Assembly (NCBI GenBank): GCA_003223325.1
Contig: QHYS01000124.1
Location: 1,803 to 45,452 of the forward strand
Length of the DNA: 43,650 nucleotides
DNA from: Acidobacteriota bacterium
GTDB lineage: Bacteria; Acidobacteriota; Terriglobia; Acidiferrales; UBA7541
Reading direction: 5' to 3'
Below the pieces are notes generated by a model. That model ran no database searches and had not been told where the DNA came from. It saw only the letters and a list, made by a program, of their open reading frames with translations. Below are positions 7,736 to 41,877 of this stretch, one piece after another. A program made the translations under genes and the position numbers. The stretch's first letter is position 1, and each line of letters starts with the position of its first letter.

Positions 7736-9235
7736 TTAGAACGCAACAACTCCGTGGGGCCATTCATCTGTCTTGATTCTGCGAATTACTTTCATTTGTG
7801 TGAGATCGACGACCGCAATAGCGCCATCCGCCGTAGTGTCTACAATCGCAGTCTTTGCGTCCGGCGTCACCGTCATGTTGAGCGGGAAATGGCCCACTTC
7901 CATCTTTGCCTCCGGCGTCAAAGTTGCCACATCGAACTCCTGCACGAAGCCGGGTTGGTCTAATACTTGTTTGCCGTCCCTGGTGCCCAAATCGTGGAAG
8001 GTTATATAGAGCTTGCTACCATCCGGGGAAAGCGCAAATGTACTCGGAGGCAGATCAAAAGGAATCGTCTTAATTACCTCGTCTCTTGTGGGGTCTACGA
8101 CCAGCAACTGCGTGCCATTAAAATTGCCGACGAAAACGTATTTCCCGTCGGGCGTCGCGATAATGCCGTCCGTACCTGTGGCGGCTGGAATGTCCTTCAG
8201 AAGCTTCATCTGCTTAAGATCGACGACGGAGATGTGTTGTACATCTTTATTCGCCGTGTAGGCCTTGTTGAGCGAGGGAACCACGGCGATCGAATGCGGA
8301 TGCGGCACACCGACCCTCACCGAACCCATCACCTTCATCTTCTTTATGTCCACGACGATCACTTCGCCCCCATTCGATTCACAGGAGGCGTACAAAAGAC
8401 CGGTCTTCTGATCGAGCGCTAACCCGTGTGGCGCCCAGTGCGGACTAATATCGATGGTGCTGGTGATCTCCATTTTCTCCACATCGATCACTTGGATCTG
8501 ATTTCCGGGGCTCTCGTACTGATCCCAGGGGCCATCTTTGTACGCAATGCTGACGTACGCGACGCCCGCCTCCCGATCAATAACCATTTCGTGAGGACGC
8601 TTCAGTGTGGAAATGTCTTTGAGGAGTTCCCCGGTCGCCAAATCAAAAAACTGGACGCTTGACGCATGCTCGTTGGCTACTGCGATTCGCCCGCCGTGGC
8701 CGGCCTGACTTTCCGCCCCGTCCAACGACCGTGGTGTCTCCACATCGCCAGCAGCTTGTGGCTTTTTCTCCTCGAAGCGGATCGCCTTTAGTACCTCAGC
8801 CTCACGCGCCAGTTCGGTTTTGCCCGCCGGAAAACCGTCTTTGGATAAGACGAATGCCAGGATGTCGGCGGTCTGCTGACGGCTTAAGCTTCCGGGGTCG
8901 TCTTGTGGCATCGAAACTTTGATCCGTTCCAACAAATCGTCGACCGAGAGGCCGTACCAGTTCGACTTGAACTCAGCGCTATTGAGCGCTGGTGCGATTT
9001 CACCGCCACCGAGGTCCGGTCCGTGGCAGCGAGCACACCTCTGCGCGTAGAGCGTCTCTCCCCGGTTGGCTTGCTCCGGTGTGTAGATTCCATCCCACAC
9101 CGACTGCGTCGACTCCGTCGAGGATGTCGCCGGCGCTTGTTGCGAAGGAACCGGTCGTTTGGCGCGCGCTGACGAGCAAAAAACGACTCCTGCTGCCGCA
9201 GGGATGAGGGCCAGAATTGCAATTTTTGTTTTCAT
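7736..9235 (-). CDS. Cytochrome c fused to YVTN beta-propeller
   Basis: A secreted protein of about 499 residues. A signal peptide (KIAILALIPAAAGVVFCSSARA) is followed by a monoheme cytochrome c domain with CARCH at residues 67-71 and a likely Met ligand in VSMPQDD. The rest is a YVTN/Lvp-like seven-bladed propeller with repeats such as GGRIAVANEHASSVQFFDLA, NQIQVIDVEKMEIT, GEVIVVDIKKMKVMG and GAIAVVDLTQMKVI. The heme would accept electrons, and the propeller may bind a partner or metal. It lies 77 bases after the PQQ dehydrogenase, which has no heme, so it is a plausible electron acceptor for that enzyme in the periplasm. The start is the ATG at 9235; a GTG at 9262 in frame is possible, but the signal peptide begins properly at the ATG. 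Confidence 0.88.
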   Translation of the reverse strand: MKTKIAILALIPAAAGVVFCSSARAKRPVPSQQAPATSSTESTQSVWDGIYTPEQANRGETLYAQRCARCHGPDLGGGEIAPALNSAEFKSNWYGLSVDDLLERIKVSMPQDDPGSLSRQQTADILAFVLSKDGFPAGKTELAREAEVLKAIRFEEKKPQAAGDVETPRSLDGAESQAGHGGRIAVANEHASSVQFFDLATGELLKDISTLKRPHEMVIDREAGVAYVSIAYKDGPWDQYESPGNQIQVIDVEKMEITSTIDISPHWAPHGLALDQKTGLLYASCESNGGEVIVVDIKKMKVMGSVRVGVPHPHSIAVVPSLNKAYTANKDVQHISVVDLKQMKLLKDIPAATGTDGIIATPDGKYVFVGNFNGTQLLVVDPTRDEVIKTIPFDLPPSTFALSPDGSKLYITFHDLGTRDGKQVLDQPGFVQEFDVATLTPEAKMEVGHFPLNMTVTPDAKTAIVDTTADGAIAVVDLTQMKVIRRIKTDEWPHGVVAF

Positions 9236-9312
9236 CACGCGTGTGCTCGCCGGCGTGGCCACAACTGTACATCCTTCCAGCGGCTCGCGCCGACCGCAAG
9301 GCGAATTCCCTC

Positions 9313-11496
9313 CTAATTCGGTAGACTGTACGCTATATACTCGCCTGAGTAGGCGCCACCACTGACGGCGACCACAATATATTGCTTGCCATCCAACATG
9401 TAGGTCATTGGGGTGCCGCTCTGGATGGCCGGCATCAAAACCGCCCCAACTTGCTGACCGGTCTTCTTGTCGTAAGCCCGCAGCATAGCGCCGCGCGGAT
9501 GCTCCGGCGTCGTCGTAATCTGTGGATCGCCCATCACAACTAGAGTCTTGGTTATCACCAATCCCACGCCCGAAGTGCCGGCCTGCCCCGTCTTTGGAAT
9601 GTGCAGACCTTTCAACGCCGGATGGTTGCGGATGTTATCCGGTGTGTCGCCATGCGGCACCTGAAACAGGACCTGACCGCGATCGAGATCGATCGCCGCG
9701 AGGATCCCATATGGCGGTTTTACGATGGGTATCCCTTGGATATTGAGGCTGCCACCGCCCTCATCAGGAGGTGGACCAGCGGCCGCGTCGCCAGCAGGCG
9801 AATGCGCTCCAGAAGTTGCGGACGCTTCAGGCACTGCGGGCAGGTCTGCGCGCGTGCGGTACCCGGAATCGGCGGCGCAACAATCACCAGGCCCCCAAAC
9901 TTCGACGATGGGCCGCCCAGCGGTCCCTGCGATGTAGCGAATATCTGAAAATCCCTGCGGGCTGGCGATGAGCGATCTCACGCCCGGCGTATTGCCGGCT
10001 GGCGCGTATAGGATGTGTGTCTCGGGATCGAATCCGCCGCCGGGCCAGTTCGTCGCGGTACCGACCGTAATCGCACCCAGCATTCCCTTGACGTCGCCGA
10101 GCATTGGCGGGTTGAACGGTGTGTCGGCCCAGCGGAACCGCTTGGCTCTCTCGACAGCTTCGGCTCGAAGCGCTGGAGTGAAGTCGATCAGGTCATCGGG
10201 TACTTTGAAGAAGTTGCGCGCATAGCGCAGGCTGTCTGGCGGGTACGGCTGCGTCGGTGAGGTCTTTTCGCCCGGCACGTCGGATTGCGGAACCGGCCGC
10301 TCTTCGATCGGCCAAACCGGCTGACCTGTCACGCGATCGAAAACGTAAAGCCAGCCCTGCTTGGTCGGCTGCGCCACCGCCTTAATTGCCCGTCCATTGA
10401 CGTTTATGTCCGCCAGGATCGGCGCGGCCGAAATGTCAAAGTTCCACAAGGGGTGGTGCACTAGCTGGTAATGCCACTTCCGCTGGCCGGTCTTCAAGTC
10501 GAGACAGACCACGCTTTCGGCAAACAGATTCTTGCCTGGCCGGTGGCCACCATAATAGTCCGACGTGGGCGTCTCGACCGGCAGATAGACCAAGCCCAGA
10601 TCTTCGTCCACAGTGATCTGATTCCACACACCCGTATTGCCGTTCTCCGCCCAGGATTTCTGTTCCCACGTGTCGTTGCCGAATTCACCCGGCCCAGGGA
10701 TGTCGTTGAACTGCCATATCTTTTTCCCCGTCCGCACATCGAACGCGCGAACCAAGCCTTTGGTGTTGTTGTGGGTCTCTACGGTAGCGCCTTCTCTCAT
10801 GGAGGAACCCACGATCACCATGTCGCGAGCCACAGTAGGCGTCGAATGGACACCGATCTCGCCCGTTTCCAAATCGATCTGTTGGTTAACTCCCTTCACC
10901 ACGCCGACCTTCAGGTCGACAATGCCGTACGTTCCGAACGAGTCGATCAGTGCGCCGTTCTTGGCATTGAGCTCCACGAGGCGATAGCCGGTCGTAATGT
11001 AAATAACGCGATCGTCGCCTTTGCCGTCTGTCCAGTACGACACACCACGGCCCGATAATTGGCGTGGGGCGACCGCGGCGCGCTTGCCTTCGCGCATGCT
11101 GTGCGACCAGATCAGCTCACCTGTTTTTGCGTCGAGTGCAATCACCGATCGCCGCGTTCCTGCGGTCGTATAGATGACGCCCTTCACCATCAGAGGCGTT
11201 CCCTCTAATTTGTATTCGGGAAACGGTCCGAAATTGTCGGTCTTGAATCGCCAGGCGACTTCCAGCTTGTTGAAGTTAGAGGCGTTGATCTGATCGAACG
11301 GGGAGTACCTGGTCCCTTTGACATCGCCCATGTTGCCCGGCCATTCGCCGTTCTGCGTCGAAGGCTGCCCTTGACGGGAGAACTGTTCTGGCGCGGGCGT
11401 TCCTACAAAGATTTGCCCTGAGACCTGGGGTGCGACGCACATCCCCGCAACAACGACGATTAGCGCCGACACGGATCGGAATAGTTTCCGCAACAT
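9313..11496 (-). CDS. PQQ-dependent quinoprotein dehydrogenase, no heme domain
   Basis: About 727 residues with a signal peptide (FRSVSALIVVVAGMCVAPQVSG) and then an eight-bladed quinoprotein propeller. Typical blocks include GEWPGNMGDVKGTRYSPFDQ, ALDAKTGELIWSH, VHHPLWNFDISAAPILADI (the glucose/alcohol-dehydrogenase segment with the catalytic-type Asp near residue 354), YVFDRVTGQPVWPIEE and AYDKKTGQQVGAV. It would oxidise an alcohol or sugar in the periplasm using PQQ. The substrate cannot be assigned. There is no CxxCH motif. An insert near residues 530-580 carries adjacent cysteines (539-540) followed by a proline-rich, low-complexity stretch, unusual for the family. The ATG at 11496 is chosen because GGGAG lies eight bases upstream and the signal peptide follows; an upstream start at 11592 is unlikely. 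Confidence 0.92.
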   Translation of the reverse strand: MLRKLFRSVSALIVVVAGMCVAPQVSGQIFVGTPAPEQFSRQGQPSTQNGEWPGNMGDVKGTRYSPFDQINASNFNKLEVAWRFKTDNFGPFPEYKLEGTPLMVKGVIYTTAGTRRSVIALDAKTGELIWSHSMREGKRAAVAPRQLSGRGVSYWTDGKGDDRVIYITTGYRLVELNAKNGALIDSFGTYGIVDLKVGVVKGVNQQIDLETGEIGVHSTPTVARDMVIVGSSMREGATVETHNNTKGLVRAFDVRTGKKIWQFNDIPGPGEFGNDTWEQKSWAENGNTGVWNQITVDEDLGLVYLPVETPTSDYYGGHRPGKNLFAESVVCLDLKTGQRKWHYQLVHHPLWNFDISAAPILADINVNGRAIKAVAQPTKQGWLYVFDRVTGQPVWPIEERPVPQSDVPGEKTSPTQPYPPDSLRYARNFFKVPDDLIDFTPALRAEAVERAKRFRWADTPFNPPMLGDVKGMLGAITVGTATNWPGGGFDPETHILYAPAGNTPGVRSLIASPQGFSDIRYIAGTAGRPIVEVWGPGDCCAADSGYRTRADLPAVPEASATSGAHSPAGDAAAGPPPDEGGGSLNIQGIPIVKPPYGILAAIDLDRGQVLFQVPHGDTPDNIRNHPALKGLHIPKTGQAGTSGVGLVITKTLVVMGDPQITTTPEHPRGAMLRAYDKKTGQQVGAVLMPAIQSGTPMTYMLDGKQYIVVAVSGGAYSGEYIAYSLPN

Positions 11497-14257: not shown

Positions 14258-16465
14258 TTATTGTTTGCTATTATCGCGTTTCAGAAGTACCAAGTCCTTG
14301 ACGAATTGGAAGTGCGCCGCGAGCGGCTTGGACCCCTTGCCTCCCTCGATGAGCCAGGGCGCGCGATCGCCGTTCGCCGCCCACAATCCGCGCCCCTTCC
14401 AGCCGGCATTCGGGTCGTCGATGCGACCATCGAATCCTTTGGCGTAGAATCCCAACGGATAGGGCACGCGCAACACCACCATGCGACCATTCGCATAAGC
14501 GATCAGGCCGTCGTTGAGGTTGCCGGTGGACATCGGCACATCTTCACCCAAGCCGAAGATGTTGTGCTGGTCCACCCATGTATAGTAGCTCGATTCCGCG
14601 CTGTTTTCTCCTATGCCCTCGAAGCCGGGACCCGGATATTTGTAGAATGACCAGCCTTCCGGGCAGTGATCGCCGGTGGCTTTGGGCCCGTTGAGCGGAC
14701 TTTTGCATCTGCTACGGTCAAAACTGCCGAGGTGACCACTCGCCAGTGAAACCCAGACGACGCCTTTCTTGTCGATATCACCGCCGCGCACGCCAAAGCC
14801 GGGCTGCGGTACGTTGTAGATCTCGGCCAGGGTGGTTTCCGGTGGATGGGGGCCCGGCACAACCCTGACCACGGAGCCAGGATTTCCGCGGACGGCGCCC
14901 CAGACCGATCCGTCTATCGGGCTTGGCATCACCGCGTAAAAGCCGGCCACGATGCGCTTATCCTTGGTAGGATCGACCGGCTGGTTGGGCTCGACGTAAT
15001 CGTCGCGCTTGCCGTTTCCATTAGTGTCTAGGATCAGCGCCGTCCAGCCCTGTGACTTGGCTGCATCGTGGGTAGCGTCCCACATCTTCGTGTTCAGCCA
15101 CCCCACCACAGGACCGCCGCCGCTGGTCCATAGCGTGTCGTTCGCGTCAAAGCCGAACTGCAGATGATGCGTGCCAAAGCAGGTATCGATGAACTCGTAG
15201 TCCCTGGTCTTCGGGTTAAAGACGGCTATTTCTCGGAGATTTTTCTCCAGCGGAAAAAGCTTGGCCGATGGAAGATCTGAGCCCGCCTTGCAGAAATCGG
15301 GATTATCTGGCCCGCGCACCGCAGCCGCCAGCCACAACCTGCCGTCCCTGCCGATCATCGAATTGTGATTGTTAATTCTCTGGTTCCAGATGGCCTCGTC
15401 GCCCCAATAAGGCGACGGCATCAGTGGCTTTAGAGCCGCCACGTGACCCGGTCCTAGGCTGAGCGGCATCTCAGGATCGCGGACCGGCGCATGGAACTTG
15501 GTGGCCGTGTTCTTGACCGGATCTAGAATGGGGATGAAATCGGAGCTGTATTCCGGCGAGCCAAAGAGTGGGCCATAAGCGTTGACTGTGGGATTCCGCT
15601 TGTCGCTGGCAATCAGGTCGTGCAAGTAATGCTTCTCGTCCATCCAGTCCCGCAGTGTCACGACGATATTGCGCTCGACCCCTTGCGGCCGCTGCGGCTT
15701 AGCGTGCGGCAATTCGCCTCTAGCCACGCGGTCAGTCCAATCCGCCAAATTCTTGACCGCAAGGGGACCCATCCCGGACAACTGGCCCATCATAAATTGC
15801 GCCGCCTGTCCCGATTGCACTCGGCGTATCCAAGCCTCTTCGGAAGAGGGGAAGTGCCCAAGGCTGGGCTCAATTGTTCGCGTCGAGAGCTGGCCCAGTT
15901 GATGGCAGCCTACGCAGCCGTTGTTTTTCATCTCGTTGAGCCACTCGGTTTGCGTCATCTTGCCGGCGATGCCGGCCTTCTGGCCCCCGAATTGATCTGC
16001 CGACGGAATTTTCAGCATCGAGTACCAGTAAATCGCCGGATAGTACCGCGCTGCCGCGGCCTCGTCGGGAGCCAGCGTCGCGGTGAGGTTCAATTCCCGG
16101 CCTGGTTCGGCCATCATTTTCGGACTATCTACTAGCCCGTAGCCGCGGACCCAAACGCTGTAAGTCGCTTTCGGTAGCTCAGGAATGAGGTAGCGGCCCC
16201 GGTCGTCAGTGACGACGATCTTGATGTACCTCACCGGCAGGTCGCGCGTCTCAGCGATCACCCAGACGCCCGCTTCGGGTCCATTGGAGCTTGTGACCAC
16301 GCCACCGATGTCATCGCCGTCTATGGCGACGGCGGCCCCCGCTGCAGATTGATCCGCGCGTTGCGCGTGCGCAATCGCCAGGACCGAAAAAAGAACCAAA
16401 GACAGAAATGGGGCTATCCCGATTCCTCGCCTAACAAACCTGTAAACTCGGCTCCGCTGCGCCAT
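14258..16465 (-). CDS. Carboxypeptidase-regulatory / cytochrome c / propeller protein
   Basis: A secreted protein of 735 residues. A signal peptide (GIAPFLSLVLFSVLAIAHA) leads to a carboxypeptidase-regulatory-like beta-sandwich (about residues 48-130, with IGGVVTSSNGPEAGVWVIAE and VTDDRGRYLIPELPKATYSV). A monoheme cytochrome c segment has CVGCH at 184-188. The long C-terminal half resembles Vgb/SMP-30-like six-bladed propellers, with blocks such as MIGRDGRLWLAAAVRG, FGFDANDTLWTSGGG and GGDIDKKGVVWVSLASGHLG. Function unknown; it is probably a periplasmic electron-transfer or substrate-binding protein. The start is ATG 16465, as GGAGG lies five bases upstream; a GTG at 16477 is inside that site. 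It is followed by a clear terminator and preceded by the Kelch gene 44 bases upstream on the same strand. Confidence 0.82.
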   Translation of the reverse strand: MAQRSRVYRFVRRGIGIAPFLSLVLFSVLAIAHAQRADQSAAGAAVAIDGDDIGGVVTSSNGPEAGVWVIAETRDLPVRYIKIVVTDDRGRYLIPELPKATYSVWVRGYGLVDSPKMMAEPGRELNLTATLAPDEAAAARYYPAIYWYSMLKIPSADQFGGQKAGIAGKMTQTEWLNEMKNNGCVGCHQLGQLSTRTIEPSLGHFPSSEEAWIRRVQSGQAAQFMMGQLSGMGPLAVKNLADWTDRVARGELPHAKPQRPQGVERNIVVTLRDWMDEKHYLHDLIASDKRNPTVNAYGPLFGSPEYSSDFIPILDPVKNTATKFHAPVRDPEMPLSLGPGHVAALKPLMPSPYWGDEAIWNQRINNHNSMIGRDGRLWLAAAVRGPDNPDFCKAGSDLPSAKLFPLEKNLREIAVFNPKTRDYEFIDTCFGTHHLQFGFDANDTLWTSGGGPVVGWLNTKMWDATHDAAKSQGWTALILDTNGNGKRDDYVEPNQPVDPTKDKRIVAGFYAVMPSPIDGSVWGAVRGNPGSVVRVVPGPHPPETTLAEIYNVPQPGFGVRGGDIDKKGVVWVSLASGHLGSFDRSRCKSPLNGPKATGDHCPEGWSFYKYPGPGFEGIGENSAESSYYTWVDQHNIFGLGEDVPMSTGNLNDGLIAYANGRMVVLRVPYPLGFYAKGFDGRIDDPNAGWKGRGLWAANGDRAPWLIEGGKGSKPLAAHFQFVKDLVLLKRDNSKQ

Positions 16466-16509
16466 ACATACCTCCACGGGGTTTAATGGAATTTACAGCG
16501 GGGATTTTA

Positions 16510-22367: not shown

Positions 22368-23633
22368 TCAAGTCCGCAGTTTGCGGAAAAAATCCCGCAG
22401 GTCCGCCACAAAAAGTTCCGGCTGCTCCCAGCACGCGAAATGTCCTCCACGTGGCATTTTTGAGTAATGCACCAGATTATAGTTCCGTTCGATCACGCTT
22501 CGAGGAGCATTCAGCGTCGGCAGTTCGCGCGGGAAGGACGCGAAACCGGACGGCACAGTAACCCTGCCGCCTATGCTGGTCTTGTCGTCAATCATTCCGC
22601 GGTAAAACCACACCGAAGTCCCGATCGTATCCGTTGCCAGATAAATCATCACATCGGTAAGAACCTGGTCTTTCGTGAAGACGGGATCGAGCGTGGCCCC
22701 CGAATCGCTCCAGAGCCTCAATTTTTCTGTTATCCAGGCCGCGGTGCCGAGCGGGTTATCGGTGAGCGCGAACGCAACGGTCTGGGGCTTGTGCTGATGT
22801 TCATTGAAGTAGTCCCTTTCGGCCGCCACAAAAGCGGTCACTGTGCGTACCCAGGCGCGTTCCTCCTCCGTCTGTTCCGCTTCCGGAGGCGCGGGTCCTC
22901 CTCCGCCGTTGAAGTGAACTCCAAGGAGTGAGTCCGGGTATTGGCGGGCCAATTGCGCGGTGACGCCGCTTCCCAAGTCTCCTCCCTGGGCGCCGTATTT
23001 TGAATACCCAAGCACCTCGGTCATAAGCCGGTGCCAGAGAGTCGCCGTTGTGGGCGCCCCGATGGGCTTACTGGGCTTCGACGAAAAGCCGAAGCCCGGG
23101 ACCGAGGGCACGACTATGTCAAACGATTCCCCGGGCGCGCCACCGAAGTGCTGGGGATCGCTCAACGGCCCAATCGCTTCGAGGAACTCCAAGACCGAGC
23201 CCGGCCAGCCGTGCGTCAAGACCAAGGGAACCGGATTAGGTCCCTTCCCTTTTACGTAATAGAAGTGAATATCGAACTCACCCACCCGAGCCAGGAACTG
23301 AGGGTAGCGGTTCAGGCTCGCCTCCGCCTTACGCCAGTCATATCGCGTGGTCCAATATTGGGCCAACGCCTTCATGTAGTCCCAGTTCGCGCCATAGCGC
23401 CAGTCCGTAGCGTCCAGCCGGTCGGGCCAGCGCGTGTCGCGCACACGGCTGAGAATGTGTTTGATCGTCGCCTCGGGAACGTTTACGCGGAAGGGACGCA
23501 ACGCCGCGCCCTGAACTTCGCCCTTGACTTCGGAAGATAGGCTCGGCTGCTCCAGGATGGGAAGCCCAGCCGCGAGGAGAGGCATCGCTAGTACCGCACG
23601 CCGCGACACCTTCCGATTGCCATCGGATTCCAT
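22368..23633 (-). CDS. Epoxide hydrolase with Tat-like signal
   Basis: 421 residues. The N-terminus has a twin-arginine-type signal (SRRAVLAMPLLAAGLP). An epoxide-hydrolase N-terminal domain follows (FRVNVPEATIKHILSRVRDT, then RWPDRLDATDWRYG), and then an alpha/beta-hydrolase core. HGWPGS (141-146) is the oxyanion motif, QGGDLGS holds the nucleophile Asp (about 219), and GGHFACWEQPE carries the catalytic His. FYRGMIDD and similar tyrosines of the lid are present. It converts an epoxide to a diol, here probably in the periplasm. TGGAG six bases before ATG 23633 sets the start. It is the first gene of a three-gene operon with a cytochrome c/copper monooxygenase and a secreted dienelactone-hydrolase-like protein. 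Confidence 0.92.
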   Translation of the reverse strand: MESDGNRKVSRRAVLAMPLLAAGLPILEQPSLSSEVKGEVQGAALRPFRVNVPEATIKHILSRVRDTRWPDRLDATDWRYGANWDYMKALAQYWTTRYDWRKAEASLNRYPQFLARVGEFDIHFYYVKGKGPNPVPLVLTHGWPGSVLEFLEAIGPLSDPQHFGGAPGESFDIVVPSVPGFGFSSKPSKPIGAPTTATLWHRLMTEVLGYSKYGAQGGDLGSGVTAQLARQYPDSLLGVHFNGGGGPAPPEAEQTEEERAWVRTVTAFVAAERDYFNEHQHKPQTVAFALTDNPLGTAAWITEKLRLWSDSGATLDPVFTKDQVLTDVMIYLATDTIGTSVWFYRGMIDDKTSIGGRVTVPSGFASFPRELPTLNAPRSVIERNYNLVHYSKMPRGGHFACWEQPELFVADLRDFFRKLRT

Positions 23634-23866
23634 GGTCAGCTCCAGAAGAAAGGATTGCCGTGGCCTACTTGGGCTGTCTAGCTTGCGAGTAAGATACACC
23701 GGGCCGCCGCCGCATACAATTCTGCTGGGGTGGAAGATTCGTTCGACGGAACCACATTGCTACGGAGTATCGCACTACGCCGAGTCTTTGCCTGATCCCC
23801 ACCACGACGGTTGCTGCGATTGCTAGGCCAGCCAGATTCCAAAGCGCCGACTGATCGAGCATAACA

Positions 23867-34133: not shown

Positions 34134-35162
34134 TCAGGGGACCACCTCAAAAGCTAGAATCTGCGGCGCGTTCTGGGCGTTTCCCGGAACGCCTACATAA
34201 TATCGGTTCAGTTCGGGCACCAACCGGGCCGTTTTAGCGCCCGGCTTTGTCGGAATTGTCGCGATGACCTGGTAATTATCGGCGTCGCGCTGCTCTACCA
34301 CGCTGATTGCGCCCGGCGAGCCCTGTAAGCCTCCGCAAGCCACATAGAGGCGATGATGAGCGGCATCGTAGGCCAGATCGTCGGCATACTCGGCCACGGA
34401 AAGACTGGTGACTTCCTTGCCCGTGTCCGTGTTGACGACCACCAGCTTGGATGGCTTGCGTGTAACTACGAACAAACGACGCCGGGCCTCATCGTATTGC
34501 ATGGGAACGTTTTGCTCGCCTGCCGTAATGGGCCAAGTCGCCACTACTGCCCTCTTGTTGCGATCCACTACACCAATTTCATTTGCGCCGGTCATGTTGA
34601 CAAACAGCCGCGATCCGGAAGTTTCAATAGCCATGGACTCGAGCCGATTGGTATCGAGTTTCATATCGGCGATCTTCTTACCGATCTTGGTATCCACAAT
34701 ACTGATCAGGCAATAGGGCGTATGAGCTTCGCGGCCGCCGTTGACGACATACAGATACTTGCTGGCAGGATCGTAAGCCACGGGATCCGCATCGACGGTC
34801 AACGCGACGCGGCCAGTCAATGCGTAGGAGTCGTACTTGAGTATCTTGATCTCAGAGGCCTCGCCATCTACGACAAAGAGTTCGTTCATCTCCGGAAAAA
34901 CCAGAACATTGTGAGGTTCCTTGAAATCCGTGAGGGCACGGATGTGCTTGTTGGTCTTGAGATCAAAAACCTCAACAGCTGGATCTTCCTCCGAGGTGAC
35001 GAAGAGCCGCTGGCCCTTAAGATCTACCCCGAAATGATCCCACTTGCGGGTTACGCCGGGCACGGAGATGGTCTGCAGCAGTCGAAGCGGCACCTTCTCT
35101 TGAGCCGGGGACTGCGGCGCGAAAATTACAGCCAAGGCAAAAGCGAACGCGACTTTCTTCAT
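34134..35162 (-). CDS. Secreted YVTN beta-propeller protein (paralog A)
   Basis: 342 residues with a signal peptide (VAFAFALAVIFAPQSPAQ) and about seven propeller blades. Repeats include WDHFGVDLKGQRLFVTSEED, AVEVFDLKTNKHIRALTDF, KYLYVVNGGREAHTPYCLIS, RLFVNMTGANEIGVVDRN and RRLFVVTRKPSKLVVVNTDT. It is one of four paralogs here (37857, 40027, 42165), which share the same order of blade motifs and a C-terminal RYYV(G/A)VP block. GAGGA four bases before ATG 35162 supports the start. The protein is expected in the periplasm; the ligand is unknown. It is the last of the minus-strand array. Confidence 0.88.
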   Translation of the reverse strand: MKKVAFAFALAVIFAPQSPAQEKVPLRLLQTISVPGVTRKWDHFGVDLKGQRLFVTSEEDPAVEVFDLKTNKHIRALTDFKEPHNVLVFPEMNELFVVDGEASEIKILKYDSYALTGRVALTVDADPVAYDPASKYLYVVNGGREAHTPYCLISIVDTKIGKKIADMKLDTNRLESMAIETSGSRLFVNMTGANEIGVVDRNKRAVVATWPITAGEQNVPMQYDEARRRLFVVTRKPSKLVVVNTDTGKEVTSLSVAEYADDLAYDAAHHRLYVACGGLQGSPGAISVVEQRDADNYQVIATIPTKPGAKTARLVPELNRYYVGVPGNAQNAPQILAFEVVP

Positions 35163-35172
35163 TTTTTCCTCT

Positions 35173-35379
35173 TCAATGTCCGGACCGAGACCCCTGCAGA
35201 CGCATTTTTTCGTTCGCATGGCGTATCTGCTCAAAGGCCTCTTTGCGGACGACATGCTCAATATTGACTTTGATTTCAGGGTCCTCCACATGTGCCACCG
35301 GAACTCTTCCTTCGCTGTTTGTTAAGGCAAAAAGCGTCGACTTAGTGGTTCCCCACACAGTCGCGATCGATTGATACAA
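35173..35379 (-). CDS. Possible small protein, 68 residues
   Basis: This open frame from a TTG reads VPVAHVEDPEIKVNIEHVV, then RKEAFEQIRHANEKMRLQG, a natural helical composition. It stops ten bases before the YVTN gene. There is no ribosome binding site, and only low support. It may be a decayed fragment or a leader. The rest of 35163-35475, upstream of the NHL gene end, holds no other feature. Confidence 0.3.
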   Translation of the reverse strand: MYQSIATVWGTTKSTLFALTNSEGRVPVAHVEDPEIKVNIEHVVRKEAFEQIRHANEKMRLQGSRSGH

Positions 35380-35475: not shown

Positions 35476-36636
35476 TTACCGGCTGCTGACAATCCTAAAC
35501 TTCTGAACTCGGTGTCCGGCCTCGTTGCCTACTCCTACTTCGGCGACGAAGATGTTACCTTTCGAGTCGATCGCCATGGTATGGCCATGAGAAAATTCAC
35601 CGGCCTGGTGTCCTGGCCGGCCAAAACTCGACAGGAGCTTCCCACTGGCGTGATCAAAAATTTCCACCTGCTCGTTTTCTTCATTTAGAACAAACATGAA
35701 CGTCTGCCCCTGATCAGGAGAGAAGCCTATCCATCCGGACGTGCCCCACGCACGAGGCAGATAGCCAGGTCCGGGAGGCTGGGTTCGCTCGCCGTAATTC
35801 ATGCGCAAACGGCTCATCTCTTCATACGGAACCAGGATGTTCTTTTTGAAGTTGCCCATTTTGTCGAACACCTGAACTCGATCCCCACGCCGGTCGCACA
35901 CGTATACCAAGGCGTCGTTGCCTATTGAAACGCAGTGTGGGACTTGCATAAATTCGTCGCCAGCGCCGGATTCCTCTTCAGTCTTCGTACGCTTCAGAAC
36001 CCATTGCCGCAGGAAATGACCGTTGCGGTCGAAGACCACTAAACGGTGGTTACTACCAGGTTCTTCGCCATCGGAAACGTAAACGTCGCCGTTGGTTGGG
36101 TCGACGGCGATTCCTCCAGGTCGAAAGAATCCTGTATGGCTTGAATTCAGTGCGATTCCCCCGACAGTGCCATCGGAAGAATCGACAACACCTTTGGTCC
36201 CGATCTGCAGCAGGAGCTTGCTCCCATCGTGAGAAAATTTCTGCACGATTCCGTCCTGATTGCTTGGAAGCCACACGTTGTTATCGCTATCCACGTAGCA
36301 AGCGTGGCGGCCGGCGCCTAGCACTTTGGGATCTCCCCAGGTGTTAACGACATTACCTTCGGGATTAAACTCAATGATGGCAGGTGCCTGGAAGGCGGCA
36401 TCGAGCTCGTTATCGGTCAGATTCTGGCGGTTGACAACGAAAACGTGATCCCGGCTATCTGTACAAACGCCGCCGACCGAGCCGGTTACCCACCCGTTCG
36501 GCAAGGGCTTGGGCCAGAACGGATCGACCTCGTACTTGGGCGGGGCAACCTGCGCGTCCAAGGTGGCCGGAAGCGCTCCACACGCAATAGCCAACACGAG
36601 CTCCACAGCCATCATTGCCGCAATCTTCAAGTTCAC
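35476..36636 (-). CDS. Secreted NHL-repeat six-bladed propeller (paralog 2)
   Basis: 386 residues with a signal peptide (IAAMMAVELVLAIACGALPA). Six NHL-type blades follow, for example GGVCTDSRDHVFVVNRQN, GGIAVDPTNGDVYVSDGEEP, NHRLVVFDRNGHFLRQWVLK, VYVCDRRGDRVQVFDKMGNF and HTMAIDSKGNIFVAEVGVGN. It is a close paralog of the neighbouring gene at 36682, sharing long blocks such as VDSSDGTVGG / VDSSDGTLGG and WIGFSPDQ/DRAQT. NHL propellers bind proteins or act as lactonase-like scaffolds; no catalytic residues were identified. The start codon is GTG at 36636; an internal ATG eight codons in is an alternative. It lies 45 bases after its paralog. Confidence 0.88.
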   Translation of the reverse strand: MNLKIAAMMAVELVLAIACGALPATLDAQVAPPKYEVDPFWPKPLPNGWVTGSVGGVCTDSRDHVFVVNRQNLTDNELDAAFQAPAIIEFNPEGNVVNTWGDPKVLGAGRHACYVDSDNNVWLPSNQDGIVQKFSHDGSKLLLQIGTKGVVDSSDGTVGGIALNSSHTGFFRPGGIAVDPTNGDVYVSDGEEPGSNHRLVVFDRNGHFLRQWVLKRTKTEEESGAGDEFMQVPHCVSIGNDALVYVCDRRGDRVQVFDKMGNFKKNILVPYEEMSRLRMNYGERTQPPGPGYLPRAWGTSGWIGFSPDQGQTFMFVLNEENEQVEIFDHASGKLLSSFGRPGHQAGEFSHGHTMAIDSKGNIFVAEVGVGNEAGHRVQKFRIVSSR

Positions 36637-36681: not shown

Positions 36682-37821
36682 TCACTGGTCGCCCGCCGCT
36701 TTAAATTTCTGAACTCTATTGCCGGCCTCATCCGCACCCAGCTCAGCGACGTAGATGTTGCCCTTAGAATCGACGGCCAGCATCTCCGCAAAGGTGAATT
36801 CCCCGACTTGATGGCCCGCCCGCCCGAACTTCGAGAGGACGTTGCCGCTGGCGCGATCGAGAATTTCGACCTGCTCGTTATCTTCATTTAAGACATACAT
36901 CAACGTCTGGGCTCGATCAGGGGAAAAGCCTATCCAGTCAGCCGTGCCCCACACGCGAGTCGCGTGCCCGGGCCCCAGCTTTTGGCGTTGGCTTCGCTGC
37001 TCATATGGGATAGAGACATTTTTTTGAAACTTTCCCACCTTGTCGAAGACCTGGATCCGATCGCCACGCCGATCACACACGTAAACCAAGCCGTCGTTGC
37101 TTATTGCCACGCAGTGTGGGACTTGCGTGAACGCCTCGGCTGCGGCCTTCTCGGGCTCAGCGTATAGGGCCCATTGGCGCAAGAAGTGCCCGTTTCGATC
37201 AAATACGACCACCCGATGATTGCTTCCAGGCTCTTCGCCATCGGCGACAAAAACGTCACCATTACTCGAATCTACCGCGATAGCCGAAGGTCGGAAGAGA
37301 TAGGTGCGACTCGCATTTAGGGGCAAGCCGCCAAGAGTGCCGTCGGACGAGTCCACTACGCCCGGCGTGCCGATTTCCAGTAGCAGTCCTTTCCCGTCGT
37401 GCGTGTATTTCTGCACGAAACCGCTGCCGCTGCCCGAAATCCAAAGATTGTTCTCGTAGTCTACGAAGCAGCCGTGAAGCGCCTCAGGAAGCATTCCGCG
37501 GTTACCCCATGAATTGACCACGTTACCTTGCGGTTCAAATTCGATCACGGGAGGCGCCTGGCGTCCAGAGTCCAGCTCGTTCTCGGTCAAACCTCCCCGG
37601 TTTAGGATGAAGACGTGATCTTGGGCATCCACACATACGCCACCAACTGCCCCAGTGACCCACCGGTCAGGCAGCGGTTTGGGCCAAGATGGATCAACCT
37701 CAAACTTCGCTGGTCTCGCCTGCGCATTCAGGGGAATTGGAGATGAAATCCCAAGCACAAAAGCGAGCCACAAACCTGCCGCGGCCCATGCAGGCAAGCA
37801 CCTTGTAGCATTCGAGGTCAT
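36682..37821 (-). CDS. Secreted NHL-repeat six-bladed propeller (paralog 1)
   Basis: About 379 residues with a signal peptide (AAAGLWLAFVLGISSPIPLNA) and the same six-blade NHL pattern as its neighbour: FEVDPSWPKPLPDRWVTGAV, GGVCVDAQDHVFILNRGG, SGFVQKYTHDGKGLLLEIG, FVADGEEPGSNHRVVVFDRN and LAVDSKGNIYVAELGADEAG. The two genes arose by tandem duplication, since they run in the same orientation and are 45 bases apart. The start is ATG 37821; GTG 37845 would lie 11 bases after the previous gene's stop. Both lack clear ribosome sites, so translational coupling is possible. The ligand is unknown. Confidence 0.86.
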   Translation of the reverse strand: MTSNATRCLPAWAAAGLWLAFVLGISSPIPLNAQARPAKFEVDPSWPKPLPDRWVTGAVGGVCVDAQDHVFILNRGGLTENELDSGRQAPPVIEFEPQGNVVNSWGNRGMLPEALHGCFVDYENNLWISGSGSGFVQKYTHDGKGLLLEIGTPGVVDSSDGTLGGLPLNASRTYLFRPSAIAVDSSNGDVFVADGEEPGSNHRVVVFDRNGHFLRQWALYAEPEKAAAEAFTQVPHCVAISNDGLVYVCDRRGDRIQVFDKVGKFQKNVSIPYEQRSQRQKLGPGHATRVWGTADWIGFSPDRAQTLMYVLNEDNEQVEILDRASGNVLSKFGRAGHQVGEFTFAEMLAVDSKGNIYVAELGADEAGNRVQKFKAAGDQ

Positions 37822-37856
37822 ACGATGATGTTCGGATCTGCACACGGTAATAATGT

Positions 37857-38876
37857 CTACGGCACGATTTTGTAGACTCGCAGTTCCGCCACCTTGTCTC
37901 CGTGGCGGGGAACCGCTAGATAGAAACGGTTCGTTTCAGAAAGGAGAAATGAAGTCTTCGCGCGGAAGCCTCCGGAGACGTGTCCGATTCGAGTATAGTG
38001 ATCCGCAGCATCTTGTTGAAACACGTCCACGAATTCATTCCCTGAAGCGTAGATTCGCTTGTTCCGCAAGTCGTAGATGATGTCATCCACCATCTCAATC
38101 GTGGGGACAGCGGTCACAATCTTGCCAGAGTTGGAATCGAGGACGACCAATTTGGCCGGCTTTCCCGTGACCGTGAACAAGCGATGATGGTGCTGATCAA
38201 AAGCCAAAGTCACATTCAGCTCGCCTTCCAGAACCACCGGCCAGGTGGTCAGCAGCTTTTGGGTATTTCGGTCAAACACACCGATGGCGTTTAGACCGGT
38301 CAAGCTGGCGAAGAGTCGCGATCCTGGTTTTTCGAGGACGAGGGCCTCGACGCGATTTGTGTCGACCTTAATATCTGCCATTTTTTTGGTAGCGGTGGTA
38401 TCAACAACGCTAATGAAAGAGTATGGCGTATGGGCCGCCCGGCCCCCATTGACGATATACATGTGTTTCGTCGCGGAGTCGTAGGCCATAGAATCACAGT
38501 CCACTTGGAGCTTCACTGATCCAGTCGACTGATAGCTACCTGAATCGTAGAGCTTGAGTTCCCCAGCGCCGCCATCGACTATAAACAGCTTCTTGATGTC
38601 GGCCCGGTATACCAGCGAATGAGGCTCATCGAGATCCGTGATGCTATGGATGAGTTTATTCGTACGCAGGTCGAAGACCTCAACGACTCCTTGCTCCACC
38701 GCCAGGAACAATCGGTGTCCCGTGAGGTCCACCGCGAAATGATCGAAATCACCCTCGTGAAGATCGGGTAAGGGAATCGTCTGGATCAAAGTCATCGGTT
38801 CCCCAACGGCCAGGCAACATGTTGAGATCCCGAACAGAGCGAAAGTTACCCAAAGCGTGAAAAGGACTCTTCTCAT
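37857..38876 (-). CDS. Secreted YVTN beta-propeller protein (paralog B)
   Basis: 339 residues with a signal peptide (VLFTLWVTFALFGISTCCLA) and YVTN blades: FDHFAVDLTGHRLFLAVEQG, VEVFDLRTNKLIHSITDLDE, HMYIVNGGRAAHTPYSFIS, RLFASLTGLNAIGVFDRNTQ and KLVVLDSNSGKIVTAVPTIE. The blade order and the C-terminal NRFYLAVPRHGDKVAELRVY match paralogs A, C and D. GGAG four bases before the ATG supports the start. It lies between the PEP-mutase-like gene (28 bases upstream) and the NHL pair (downstream), all on one strand and probably one transcript. The product is probably periplasmic. Confidence 0.88.
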   Translation of the reverse strand: MRRVLFTLWVTFALFGISTCCLAVGEPMTLIQTIPLPDLHEGDFDHFAVDLTGHRLFLAVEQGVVEVFDLRTNKLIHSITDLDEPHSLVYRADIKKLFIVDGGAGELKLYDSGSYQSTGSVKLQVDCDSMAYDSATKHMYIVNGGRAAHTPYSFISVVDTTATKKMADIKVDTNRVEALVLEKPGSRLFASLTGLNAIGVFDRNTQKLLTTWPVVLEGELNVTLAFDQHHHRLFTVTGKPAKLVVLDSNSGKIVTAVPTIEMVDDIIYDLRNKRIYASGNEFVDVFQQDAADHYTRIGHVSGGFRAKTSFLLSETNRFYLAVPRHGDKVAELRVYKIVP

Positions 38877-38904: not shown

Positions 38905-39954
38905 CTACTTGGGCTGGAATTCAGGATCGTAGGTGCCTGGAGCTCCGCGAGAACCGAGTCGACTGGTCCAATACTCGATCACATAGTAGGTGTTAAGCCC
39001 GATCGTTTGATAGACCTCTTTATAGATGGGAGCATAGACGCTCGGATCCATGCCCAAGCTGCCGTTCTCCTTGAGTCGCGAAAGCGCGTCCTTAATCGTC
39101 TTGTAATACAAGAGAGTTATCCCGGAAGGATGATTCAGGATCTTCCAACCCATGGCATTGAGTTCGGCCGCGGTGAAGTTAGGCCTCTCGGGCATACCGT
39201 GCTCAGCGTTGGCAAAGTTGAGGGGGCCCTGGATCTCTTTCGGAATTCGCTTGGTTTCTTCGACGGTCCTCGGGAATAGCAAGACGTAATCAGCCCCTGC
39301 CTGGAAGAAAAGATTGGACCGGCGCACGCATTCGGAGAAGCCGTGAGTCTGCAAGGACGCAGTGCAGGCACCGACAACGAAATCTGGATCGCGTCGCGCT
39401 TGAACCGCGTAGCGGATCTTTTCCACCATCTCCTCGGTCGCAATCGTTTCTGTTTTGGCGTCCATATAATAGTGGAAGCGTTTCGGGCAAACCTGATCAT
39501 CGACGCAAAGACCGGCGGCCCCAGCGTGCTCGAGCACACGAACCGTGTGGAAAACATGAGCGGGCTCGCCGAATCCACCGCCGGCGTCGACCAAAAGGGG
39601 GATGTTTACTGTGTTCGTGATCCTGTTAGTGGCTCGAGCCAGGTCATCGAGGCTCAAGGCAGCTTCAACCTCGCAGGTAACTACGCCCAATCCAGGGCCG
39701 GACAAATTGACACAACGGAAGCCTACCGACTCAGCGATTCGTGCCGTGAGAGGGTCGTGAATACCGGGGGAATCGATGACGCCCGGGCTTCTAAGCATCT
39801 CTCGTAGTATGGTGGTCATTCGTTTTGGTGAACCGGGCCGAATACCCGCTTCCCCCTGGGGACGAGCCAAAGCTGGGAAAGAGGTTGCCGTTAAGCCGCC
39901 CAGAGCACCTAAGGACGTGTTTTTCGCAAAGTCGCGCCGCGATAGCCTCGCCAA
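38905..39954 (-). CDS. Tat-exported isocitrate lyase/PEP mutase-like protein
   Basis: 349 residues. A twin-arginine signal (LSRRDFAKNTSLGALGG) precedes a TIM barrel of the isocitrate lyase/PEP mutase superfamily, with PGIHDPLTARIAESVGFRCV and RATNRITNTVNIPLLVDAGG. The usual DADTGYG motif reads DAGGGFG (123-129), the EDQxxPKRCGH segment reads DDQVCPKRFHY (152-162), and the ARTDA segment reads GACTAS (195-200). A metal-binding Asp and a substrate Arg are therefore changed, so classical activity is doubtful. Export is also unusual for this fold. The start is TTG 39954, fixed by GAGGAGG five bases upstream; an earlier TTG at 40014 lacks this. It sits between two YVTN genes. A changed reaction or a binding role is more likely than C-C or C-P bond cleavage. 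Confidence 0.85.
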   Translation of the reverse strand: MARLSRRDFAKNTSLGALGGLTATSFPALARPQGEAGIRPGSPKRMTTILREMLRSPGVIDSPGIHDPLTARIAESVGFRCVNLSGPGLGVVTCEVEAALSLDDLARATNRITNTVNIPLLVDAGGGFGEPAHVFHTVRVLEHAGAAGLCVDDQVCPKRFHYYMDAKTETIATEEMVEKIRYAVQARRDPDFVVGACTASLQTHGFSECVRRSNLFFQAGADYVLLFPRTVEETKRIPKEIQGPLNFANAEHGMPERPNFTAAELNAMGWKILNHPSGITLLYYKTIKDALSRLKENGSLGMDPSVYAPIYKEVYQTIGLNTYYVIEYWTSRLGSRGAPGTYDPEFQPK

Positions 39955-39968
39955 TTTGTCCTCCTCAT

Positions 39969-39989
39969 AACGGGAAACGATATCCCGTT
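39969..39989. repeat. Short inverted repeat before TTG start
   Basis: AACGGG at 39969-39974 and CCCGTT at 39984-39989 form a stem with a nine-base loop, three bases upstream of the ribosome binding site of the PEP-mutase-like gene, inside a 72-base gap between two genes. It could shield the site or mark RNA processing; it may also be chance. Confidence 0.25.
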
Positions 39990-40026
39990 TAGCCCAGCCT
40001 GCTGTTACCTTCAAAATAAGCAGGCC

Positions 40027-41088
40027 TCATTGGATTTGGTACTCAAGAATTTGGGCGTTCGTAGTATCACGTTGGGGCACCGCCACATAGTACCGTCCGA
40101 GCGTAGACACTAACTCCGCAGTCCGGGCCCCAGGTCCGCTGGGGACCTGGCCGAGGGATACATAGTGGTCAGAGTCTAGTTGTTTGTACAGGTCGATCGA
40201 GCCATCTCCGGCAGGGCAGGCGGCGTAAAGGCGCTTCGTCTTTGCATCAAAGGCCAGATCATCGACGCCTTGATTGATGGGAAGCGCCTGGAGTTCTTTG
40301 CCCGTGGCTGTGTCAAATACGACGATGTGCCCGCTCCTGCAACCCACAAATAAACGGTGATGCGGTTCATCTAGCGCCAACGTTACCGCGGTCTTCCCTA
40401 GTGTAATGGGCCAGGTGGTGATAACTCTGCGAGCTACGCGATCAATGACCACGATGCGATTCTTGGCCACGTCAGTTTCATACAATCTAGGTCCGGATGC
40501 TTCAATGGTCATGCCATCGAGGCCCTCGCTGTCAACCGTTAGTGAGCCAAGGTTCTCGCCACTCGTCGTGTTAATAACGTTGATCGTGGAATAAGCCATC
40601 TTCGCGTCCTTACCGCCATTCTCTACGTAAAGCAACTTGGTTGTAGGATCATAGATACTTGGGTCTGCGTCGGGAAGAAGAGGCACACTTTTGATCAAGT
40701 CATAGGTTTTCCCGTCAAAAATCTTCAGCGCTCCTCCGTCTCCACCATCGGTGACGTAAAGGCGGTTTAGGTCTTCCCGATAGAGCAGATGGTGCGGAAT
40801 CTCGATTCCCGGGATGGTGTGGATGAGCTCGCGGGTCTTCAAATCGAAAACCATAACCGCTTTGGCTCCCTGAGGGGTAGTAAACAATCGCTGCCCTTTG
40901 AGGTCCACAAGGAGGTGGTCAAAACGCCCCATCACGTTACGGGGGAAATCGTATCTGCCCACCAGCTTAAGCGGTGTTCCGCTCGAAGCCTTGCCCGGAG
41001 CGGAAGTCTTTTGCTGCCGTGCAAAAATCGAGGCTGACAGCAACACCAAGATTCCAGAGGCCAATAGCAAAATGACGCTTCTCTTCAC
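40027..41088 (-). CDS. Secreted YVTN beta-propeller protein (paralog C)
   Basis: 353 residues with a signal peptide (VILLLASGILVLLSASIFA) and YVTN blades: FDHLLVDLKGQRLFTTPQG, VMVFDLKTRELIHTIPGIE, RLYVTDGGDGGALKIFDGKT, LYVENGGKDAKMAYSTINV, RLFVGCRSGHIVVFDTATG and RLYAACPAGDGSIDLYKQLD. Closest in wording to paralog D at 42165 (shared HRLFVGCRS, DGGTLE/DSEGLD region and DPDHYQSLG/DSDHYVSLG). It starts with GTG 41088, which overlaps the TGA of the AtuA-like gene as GTGA, so translation is probably coupled. Predicted periplasmic. Confidence 0.88.
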   Translation of the reverse strand: MKRSVILLLASGILVLLSASIFARQQKTSAPGKASSGTPLKLVGRYDFPRNVMGRFDHLLVDLKGQRLFTTPQGAKAVMVFDLKTRELIHTIPGIEIPHHLLYREDLNRLYVTDGGDGGALKIFDGKTYDLIKSVPLLPDADPSIYDPTTKLLYVENGGKDAKMAYSTINVINTTSGENLGSLTVDSEGLDGMTIEASGPRLYETDVAKNRIVVIDRVARRVITTWPITLGKTAVTLALDEPHHRLFVGCRSGHIVVFDTATGKELQALPINQGVDDLAFDAKTKRLYAACPAGDGSIDLYKQLDSDHYVSLGQVPSGPGARTAELVSTLGRYYVAVPQRDTTNAQILEYQIQ

Positions 41089-41579
41089 TTGATCATCTCC
41101 TCGATTTCATTTCGGAGCTTCATGTTTCTTTCGGCTCCCCGTATGGTCTGTTCGTCCAGTAGCCGCGCAGGTCGGAGCGGCGTGATGCGTCCGGCAAGGT
41201 AGGCCTTGAGAAGGTCCTTTTCAACCTCACCGCTGATGGCCGCTACCTTAAAATGCCAGTTGTTGACGCTGGCCAATTCTCGAACGATCCCGAGCATTCG
41301 TTCCAGATGAGGTTTCCCTCCAGCAAATCCAGCTGTCCCAATAAGCAATGGGATACCCGCCGCTAGGGCTTCCCGCATCATCAATTCCGTATCGCGCCTG
41401 ATCGCCTCAGAAGAAGCCTTTGTTTTTCCGGAACCGAGATAATAAGGACCGGCGTCTGTGGAACCGGCATCGCAGCCGATGAAGTCCGCGCCCGCCCGGA
41501 CAGCTCGAGAAAGGCTCTCTTCGAGAAATCCTGATCCCACGCCACCTGTGGCAGCGACCGCATTGACTGTGGCTTTCAT
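41085..41579 (-). CDS. AtuA/DUF1446-like protein, apparently C-terminally truncated
   Basis: 164 residues from ATG 41579, with ATVNAVAATGGVGSGFLEES, then GADFIGCDAGSTDAGPYYLG, PLLIGTAGFAGGKPHLERM and LDEQTIRGAERNMKLRNEIE. From memory these blocks match the N-terminal third of acyclic terpene utilisation AtuA / DUF1446 proteins, which run to about 440 residues. Here the frame stops after the first domain, just where the full family continues with its GADVVIAGR-type part, so the gene is probably a truncated or split form, or a natural short version. The start is uncertain (weak ribosome site; the frame is open to 41702). No signal peptide is present. Its stop overlaps the GTG of the YVTN gene. 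Confidence 0.55.
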   Translation of the reverse strand: MKATVNAVAATGGVGSGFLEESLSRAVRAGADFIGCDAGSTDAGPYYLGSGKTKASSEAIRRDTELMMREALAAGIPLLIGTAGFAGGKPHLERMLGIVRELASVNNWHFKVAAISGEVEKDLLKAYLAGRITPLRPARLLDEQTIRGAERNMKLRNEIEEMIK

Positions 41580-41877
41580 ACTTCGTGTTTTTGCCTCGAA
41601 GTCGAAGTTTATACGGCTGGCCACCAGTGTCCCGACTTTCCGCGTTATGACACGGCAACAAAAGAAGCGTTCAAGCGGCATACGGAGGCTGGACCTGGGC
41701 AACTCGATTTCGGCACAGGAATGGCTAGGAGGAATCTCAGGGTAGGTTTTAGATCCTCCGCCGGGGATTCATAGCTCACCGTAGGACACTCCGCGAGGTT
41801 ACGTTGAATATGTCGCGGAACATACCATCAGCGATCTAGATTTGACAAGTTCAGTTTCGATAGTGTGGGTTATCGCG

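Follow-up and report, generated by a model that had tools for sequence, protein, structure and literature searches.

The window analysed here is a stretch of 43,650 nt from the genome of a soil bacterium of the Terriglobia (Acidobacteriota), represented by one assembly of 377 contigs. The gene under study lies on its minus strand at 38905..39954 and codes for a protein of 349 aa (the window protein), which sequence, profiles, alignment and a structure model place in the PEP-mutase/isocitrate-lyase (PEPM/ICL) fold and in a clade designated DxG/HYH, with an eroded active site. The gene is contained in an open reading frame at 38905-40014 (minus strand, 369-residue reading) with no frameshift and no internal stop, separated from the upstream propeller gene by a 12-bp gap. 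The TTG at 39954 is the likely start, as a Shine-Dalgarno sequence AGGAGG (39960..39965, minus strand) is read at a spacer of 5 nt; the same gene and start had been called in an earlier sequence-only reading. Residues are numbered by the 369-residue reading, with E. coli PrpB equivalents beside (D143=D85, R217=R158, D219=D160, H170=H113, E172=E115).

The gene is part of a minus-strand run with short gaps, and most genes of the run begin with a signal-like stretch (by eye). The run comprises an AtuA fragment (41085..41702), a YncE-like beta-propeller with signal-like start (40027..41088; 54% identical to one in the DxG cluster of genome G412), the window protein gene, a second YncE-like beta-propeller with signal-like start (37857..38876), and two NHL propellers (36682..37845 and 35476..36636) that are 61% identical to each other, all propellers being assigned by profiles and comparison. 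Further along are a YncE-like propeller (34134..35291) and CHRD, cytochrome-quinoprotein and amidase genes. The embedding in a propeller array is thus as described before, with a YncE-like propeller on either side and the NHL propellers on the downstream side. The YncE query gave 28 matches in the genome, clustered on few contigs, so a chance propeller neighbour within 5 kb is not very rare (about 1 in 20, a rough estimate). The AtuA fragment is an open frame corresponding to the N-terminal third of AtuA (PF07287/DUF1446), with its stop codon reaching 4 bp into the next gene. Its 205-residue product has no Pfam match; it shares 58-59% identity with the AtuA of locus L072 across some 140-150 residues, and aligns with the AtuA of G412 (447 residues) only as far as residue 162. 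The C-terminal half of AtuA was not found in the window genome, and searches for DUF4387 there, run without a positive control, gave no match. As the AtuA remnant is located two genes upstream, the window protein gene probably belongs to a remodelled catabolic operon.

The window protein is a member of the PEP mutase/isocitrate lyase superfamily, matching the Pfam profile PEP_mutase (PF13714) over the barrel at residues 76-312 with E 2.1e-30 and 106.5 bits (curated cut-off 31.5). It does not belong to the 2-methylisocitrate lyases in the narrow sense: TIGR02317 (prpB) gave 1.2e-43 and 149 bits, short of its 354-bit cut-off, and KRFHY stands in place of K[KR]CGH. The scores for the PEP mutase, phosphonopyruvate hydrolase and CPEP phosphonomutase equivalogs were likewise below their cut-offs (83.7/319.6, 85.5/374.4, and 115.2/420.1 bits, respectively). 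A sequence search of the PDB returned 2,3-dimethylmalate lyase (4.7e-30) among others. The structure model has a mean pLDDT of 87.1 and a pTM of 0.83, and is confident from about residue 41. It matches the superfamily end to end, with a VIA Z-score of 34.5 to 2-methylisocitrate lyase 1xg3 (rmsd 2.1, 283 aligned residues) and 33.6 to 3fa3, and a Foldseek value of 1.9e-23 to 1mum, so the full barrel that had been claimed is there. In common with PrpB and 2,3-dimethylmalate lyase, the window protein has the whole barrel, D85, the KR loop start and the end-to-end structure; unlike them, it has no catalytic Cys and no D87, a shortened D58 loop, Cys for Arg158, and a Tat-type signal. It also shares the fold of oxaloacetate decarboxylase PA4872 (Z 31.5 over 250 residues), a superfamily member without the lyase Cys that keeps the aspartates of the site and is not known to have an export signal. 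One other superfamily member was recognized in the genome, a canonical protein with DADTGYG..KKCGH..ARTDA.

Three unusual motifs singled out in the sequence-only reading, DAGGGFG, KRFHY and GACTAS, are each read in frame and fall at the alignment positions given there, but two of them are not losses of this protein. In an alignment of 140 proteins (148 matches, 141 distinct, of which 140 were long enough), the position of D87 is Gly in 78 and Asp in 58, with four other rows. The 78 DxG rows have the signature DAGAGFG..GEPxH..KRxHYH and a gap at the D58 loop, three residues shorter than in DxD rows. D143 (D85), Gly at D87 and K178 are each present in 78/78, and Tyr182 at the H125 position in 77/78; among the 77 members other than the window protein, H153 is found in 76, the last loop His in 76, Arg217 in 77, and Asp219 in 76. 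In the 58 DxD rows the residues are N153 (57), Cys180 (55), Gly181 (55) and His182 (54), and the D58 loop is longer, with Asp in 57. Because the conserved residues differ consistently between the two sets, DxG is a coherent second active-site type, with no D58 loop aspartate, no D87 and no catalytic Cys, and with a Glu, the GEPxH His and KRxHYH in their place. A metal-motif loss private to the window protein is therefore ruled out, DxGxG and HYH being features of the clade.

In trees the DxG/HYH rows form one clade of 78 with SH-aLRT 99, both with and without the motif columns, and the window protein is placed inside. All 78 DxG rows and every second DxD row were used, with three odd rows dropped from the first tree and five from the motif-free tree. 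Its members come from Pseudomonadota, Actinomycetota, Chloroflexota, Nitrospinota, Myxococcota, and Acidobacteriota including Terriglobia; they are annotated as 'isocitrate lyase/PEP mutase family protein' and, as far as searched, are uncharacterised. Close relatives of the window gene are rare: only three others (55, 47 and 51% identical) were found among 89 genomes of the same family, and at the order level 4/95 genomes have the gene, its own genome counted. A scan of 84,980 species gave 352 relatives, of which 80 were kept. Its candidates were found with two patterns, one of which included the GxG motif (and partly GEPxH), so the choice of pattern itself accounts for part of the GxG frequency in the scan; the counts for HYH and R158 and the tree built without motif columns do not depend on it.

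Within this clade the window protein has changes of its own. At GACTAS (39355..39372, minus strand), the Arg that binds the substrate carboxylate in the superfamily (R158/R159) is Cys at 217, so this carboxylate-binding residue is gone, as had been claimed; Arg is found in 77/77 other DxG members and in 58/58 DxD rows. D160 at position 219 is Ala (Gly in L141), His170 (H113) is Cys in the window protein alone, and Glu172 (E115) is Asp, as in six other DxG members. At DAGGGFG (39568..39588, minus strand), D85 is kept and the Gly for D87 is the clade feature, but the middle Ala to Gly change occurs in no other DxG member. In the KRFHYY loop (39466..39483, minus strand), the last His of the clade form KRxHYH (His183) is Tyr only in the window protein, and Phe in the sister L069. 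From the rest of the clade the window protein thus differs in lacking R158, which no other member lacks, as well as D160, H113 and the last loop His, and in its Tat-type signal; DxGxG, GEPxH, KRxHY, the D58-loop gap and the tree position are common to both. Altogether, seven of 34 columns conserved at ≥95% in the other DxG rows are changed, the second highest number of 78.

The accompanying claim that metal-binding residues are gone was too strong. According to the passages on PEP mutase in PMC7916636, the protein binds the metal through Asp85, the waters of the metal are held by Asp58, Asp87 and Glu114, and Arg159 is next to the keto oxygen; those on M. tuberculosis isocitrate lyase in PMC7609661 describe Arg228 (equivalent of R158) as holding the carboxylate of the substrate and Cys191 as the acid. 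PDB entry titles record structures of Coxiella methylisocitrate lyase with R152Q and E110Q mutations, presumably at the same Arg and Glu as R158 and E115. Asp85, the direct ligand on this assignment, is kept in the window protein, which also has a Glu at the D58 position or close to it and an Asp in place of E115. The arginine is thus lost, but metal binding need not be. Retention of D85 (143), E117, D172, H153, K178, R179, H181 and Y182 leaves room for an intact metal site and a partly intact loop, and for a changed activity.

The N-terminus is of Tat type by eye. The 349-residue protein begins MARLSRRDFAKNTSLGALGGLTATSFPALA, with the twin-arginine start MARLSRRDFAK followed by NTSLGALGGLTATSFPALA, a weakly hydrophobic stretch and an AxA site; the signal peptide would be MARLSRRDFAK-NTSLGALGGLTATSFP-ALA (39865..39954, minus strand), with the cleavage site inferred. 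TatC is encoded in the genome, and a clearly homologous signal is present in the DxG protein of L073. By its motif, hydrophobic stretch and AxA site the window protein is a putative Tat substrate, which bears out the signal noted earlier. These two are the only Tat-type signals in the clade (2/78), and L069, placed between them, has none; a Tat regex at first look flagged 8/78 DxG rows, six of which were set aside by eye as upstream frame extensions. L073 keeps R158, D160, E115 and HYH, so an exported member need not have lost its activity.

Tat-type signals were also found in 6/107 Acidobacteriota superfamily proteins, picked by similarity and not randomly, the window protein excluded from the count. 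The Tat label needs at least three changes on a 115-row tree, and therefore Tat-type signals on PEPM/ICL barrels are recurrent in this phylum. The other Acidobacteriota proteins are on separate branches (L160/L162/L163; L161; L164) and resemble the window protein in being Tat-type barrels with odd motifs. L160 (2380-3429), L162 (2117-3139) and L163 (2247-3224), all on the minus strand, have DADQAGE, EDS and GRTV, and their genes overlap the start of an apparent exported amidohydrolase gene (by eye). The 325-aa ORF of L164, with DLDNLGEP, LCDG and VRCQG, has another unusual active site. No description of exported superfamily members was found in the open-access literature, most subscription journals being outside the reach of this search.

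The gene neighbourhoods appear to connect the DxG clade with the AtuA/DUF4387 pair, since both are near DxG genes in several loci (L127, L135, L147, L084 and L083). AtuA was found in 10/76 and DUF4387 in 8/76 DxG loci; neighbour clustering left out 20 DxG rows without a self ORF. In L083, a tandem pair of DxG genes (7965-9770, plus strand) is located between DUF4387 and AtuA. In G412 the DxG gene is surrounded by AtuA and DUF4387, by MFS carriers and YncE propellers, and by genes for a class V aminotransferase, a phosphodiesterase, an isopropylmalate-type dehydrogenase and an MmgE/PrpD protein whose start is Tat-like. Unlike relatives with AtuA and DUF4387, the window locus has AtuA truncated and DUF4387 not found. 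In the open-access literature no paper on the two together was found, and DUF1446 was found only as an unknown beside methylaspartate genes, in a passage of PMC4682846. Propeller neighbours are present in Terriglobial loci L069, L070, L071, L072 and the window, and absent in L073; YncE, NHL and Vgb queries gave no match in the 71 non-Terriglobial of 76 DxG loci. DxGxG relatives thus do form one clade, but the idea that Tat signals and propeller neighbours define it is ruled out by 2/78 and 0/71. MmgE/PrpD-like genes with Tat-like starts also occur in the Terriglobial DxG clusters of L149 (9169-10671, minus strand) and L068 (7186-8691, plus strand).

Counted over sites at which two relatives agree, changes on the window branch amount to 11/34 in active-site segments and 27/108 elsewhere, compared with 0/23 and 31/112 for sister L069 and 2/27 and 36/116 for L073; the segments were hand-picked after the alignment had been seen, and the counts are small. 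The window and L069 differ in the active site (Fisher p 0.0018) and not elsewhere (p 0.76). With three agreeing relatives the counts are 6/25 and 16/80 for the window and 0/19 and 17/81 for L069; the contrast weakens when L073 and L071 serve as the agreeing pair (window 10/29 and 29/110; L069 4/29 and 30/110). Within the window branch, enrichment of changes in the active site over the scaffold is not significant (Fisher p 0.51, 0.49, 0.78): the signal is protection lost relative to sisters, not enrichment within this branch. The scaffold shows an ordinary branch length (0.37 without the motif columns, on a path of 0.77 to L069). Taken together, the normal scaffold rate and the active-site changes indicate normal constraint on the scaffold and relaxed constraint on the active site. 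Part of the erosion may predate the split from L069, which is already without P118 and the last loop His. Changes at codon positions 1/2/3 are 37/180, 34/219 and 59/119 (0.21, 0.16, 0.50) on the window branch and 35/178, 32/217 and 65/125 (0.20, 0.15, 0.52) on the sister branch. This equal bias means that the gene is under purifying selection, maintained at least until very recently, and it disfavours a pseudogene.

A relaxed active site on a normal scaffold is consistent with a maintained protein freed from lyase chemistry, and the earlier suggestion of a new activity or a binding role holds as a reading of the sequence. We give about an even chance to the window protein being an exported, periplasmic pseudoenzyme derived from an AtuA-linked DxG/HYH enzyme. 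It would probably bind something rather than cleave it, as the scaffold is kept and the substrate-holding arginine of nearly all relatives is lost. The ancestor may have been an enzyme for a 2-oxo or 2-hydroxy acid, encoded in a catabolic operon with AtuA and DUF4387; this lineage would then have gained the Tat signal, the protein folding in the cytoplasm, possibly metal-loaded, before export, and substrate cleavage would have been lost. At present it could be a non-catalytic periplasmic protein that uses what is left of the metal/carboxylate pocket, or the surface of the barrel, to bind either a small acid or one of the co-operonic propellers as a partner. Against this reading, GACTAS is carried by one sequence only. 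A sequence or assembly error could produce such an odd site in a single assembly of 377 contigs, where Arg to Cys can be one base, but several separate in-frame substitutions across the segments without a frameshift make it highly improbable.

Possible, if rather unlikely, is a periplasmic enzyme of changed activity, whose persisting metal site (D85, E117, D172, H153, H181) would serve a substrate that does not make the standard carboxylate contact. D85 and several clade-specific potential ligands are retained, and the Tat-type proteins on separate Acidobacteriota branches, three of them adjoining the apparent amidohydrolase, suggest that exported chemistry may recur; however, almost no relative in the set has lost R158 or D160, and active-site constraint looks relaxed rather than shifted to few sites. 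The truncated AtuA, the missing DUF4387 match, and relative G405, with only a DxG gene fragment containing a stop, would agree with a decaying remnant of an AtuA/DUF4387/DxG-lyase operon, an explanation made improbable by the intact frame, the strong ribosome site and the sister-like codon-position bias; the AtuA fragment is also biased (38/121, 28/142, 38/65). The G405 fragment (C89:35167-35376, 41% over 70 residues) lies next to an otherwise G412-like cluster and represents an independent loss.

Annotation merges two things: a PEPM/ICL clade that is large and coherent, and an exported offshoot that is rare. The former has a re-wired metal site without catalytic cysteine and is tied to the uncharacterised AtuA and DUF4387, and its chemistry is testable on ordinary members; in the latter, catalysis has seemingly been given up and the fold kept. 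Going beyond the pseudoenzyme reading, we propose only tentatively, and with some doubt, that a PEPM/ICL lyase was turned into a secreted protein with a binding or scaffold role and no catalysis, in an operon that also encodes exported propellers and a quinoprotein and has kept an AtuA N-terminal fragment. Part of a cytoplasmic catabolic operon would then have been re-used outside the cytoplasm, in a phylum whose barrels gained Tat signals several times.

Two further genes of the window, both on the minus strand, were noted. An epoxide hydrolase (EHN and alpha/beta hydrolase) at 22368-23699 has a Tat-like signal KVSRRAVLAMPLLAAG. A carboxypeptidase-regulatory domain protein at 14258-16477 has one CxxCH, and its first domain resembles the propeller proteins flanking the DxG gene of L069.
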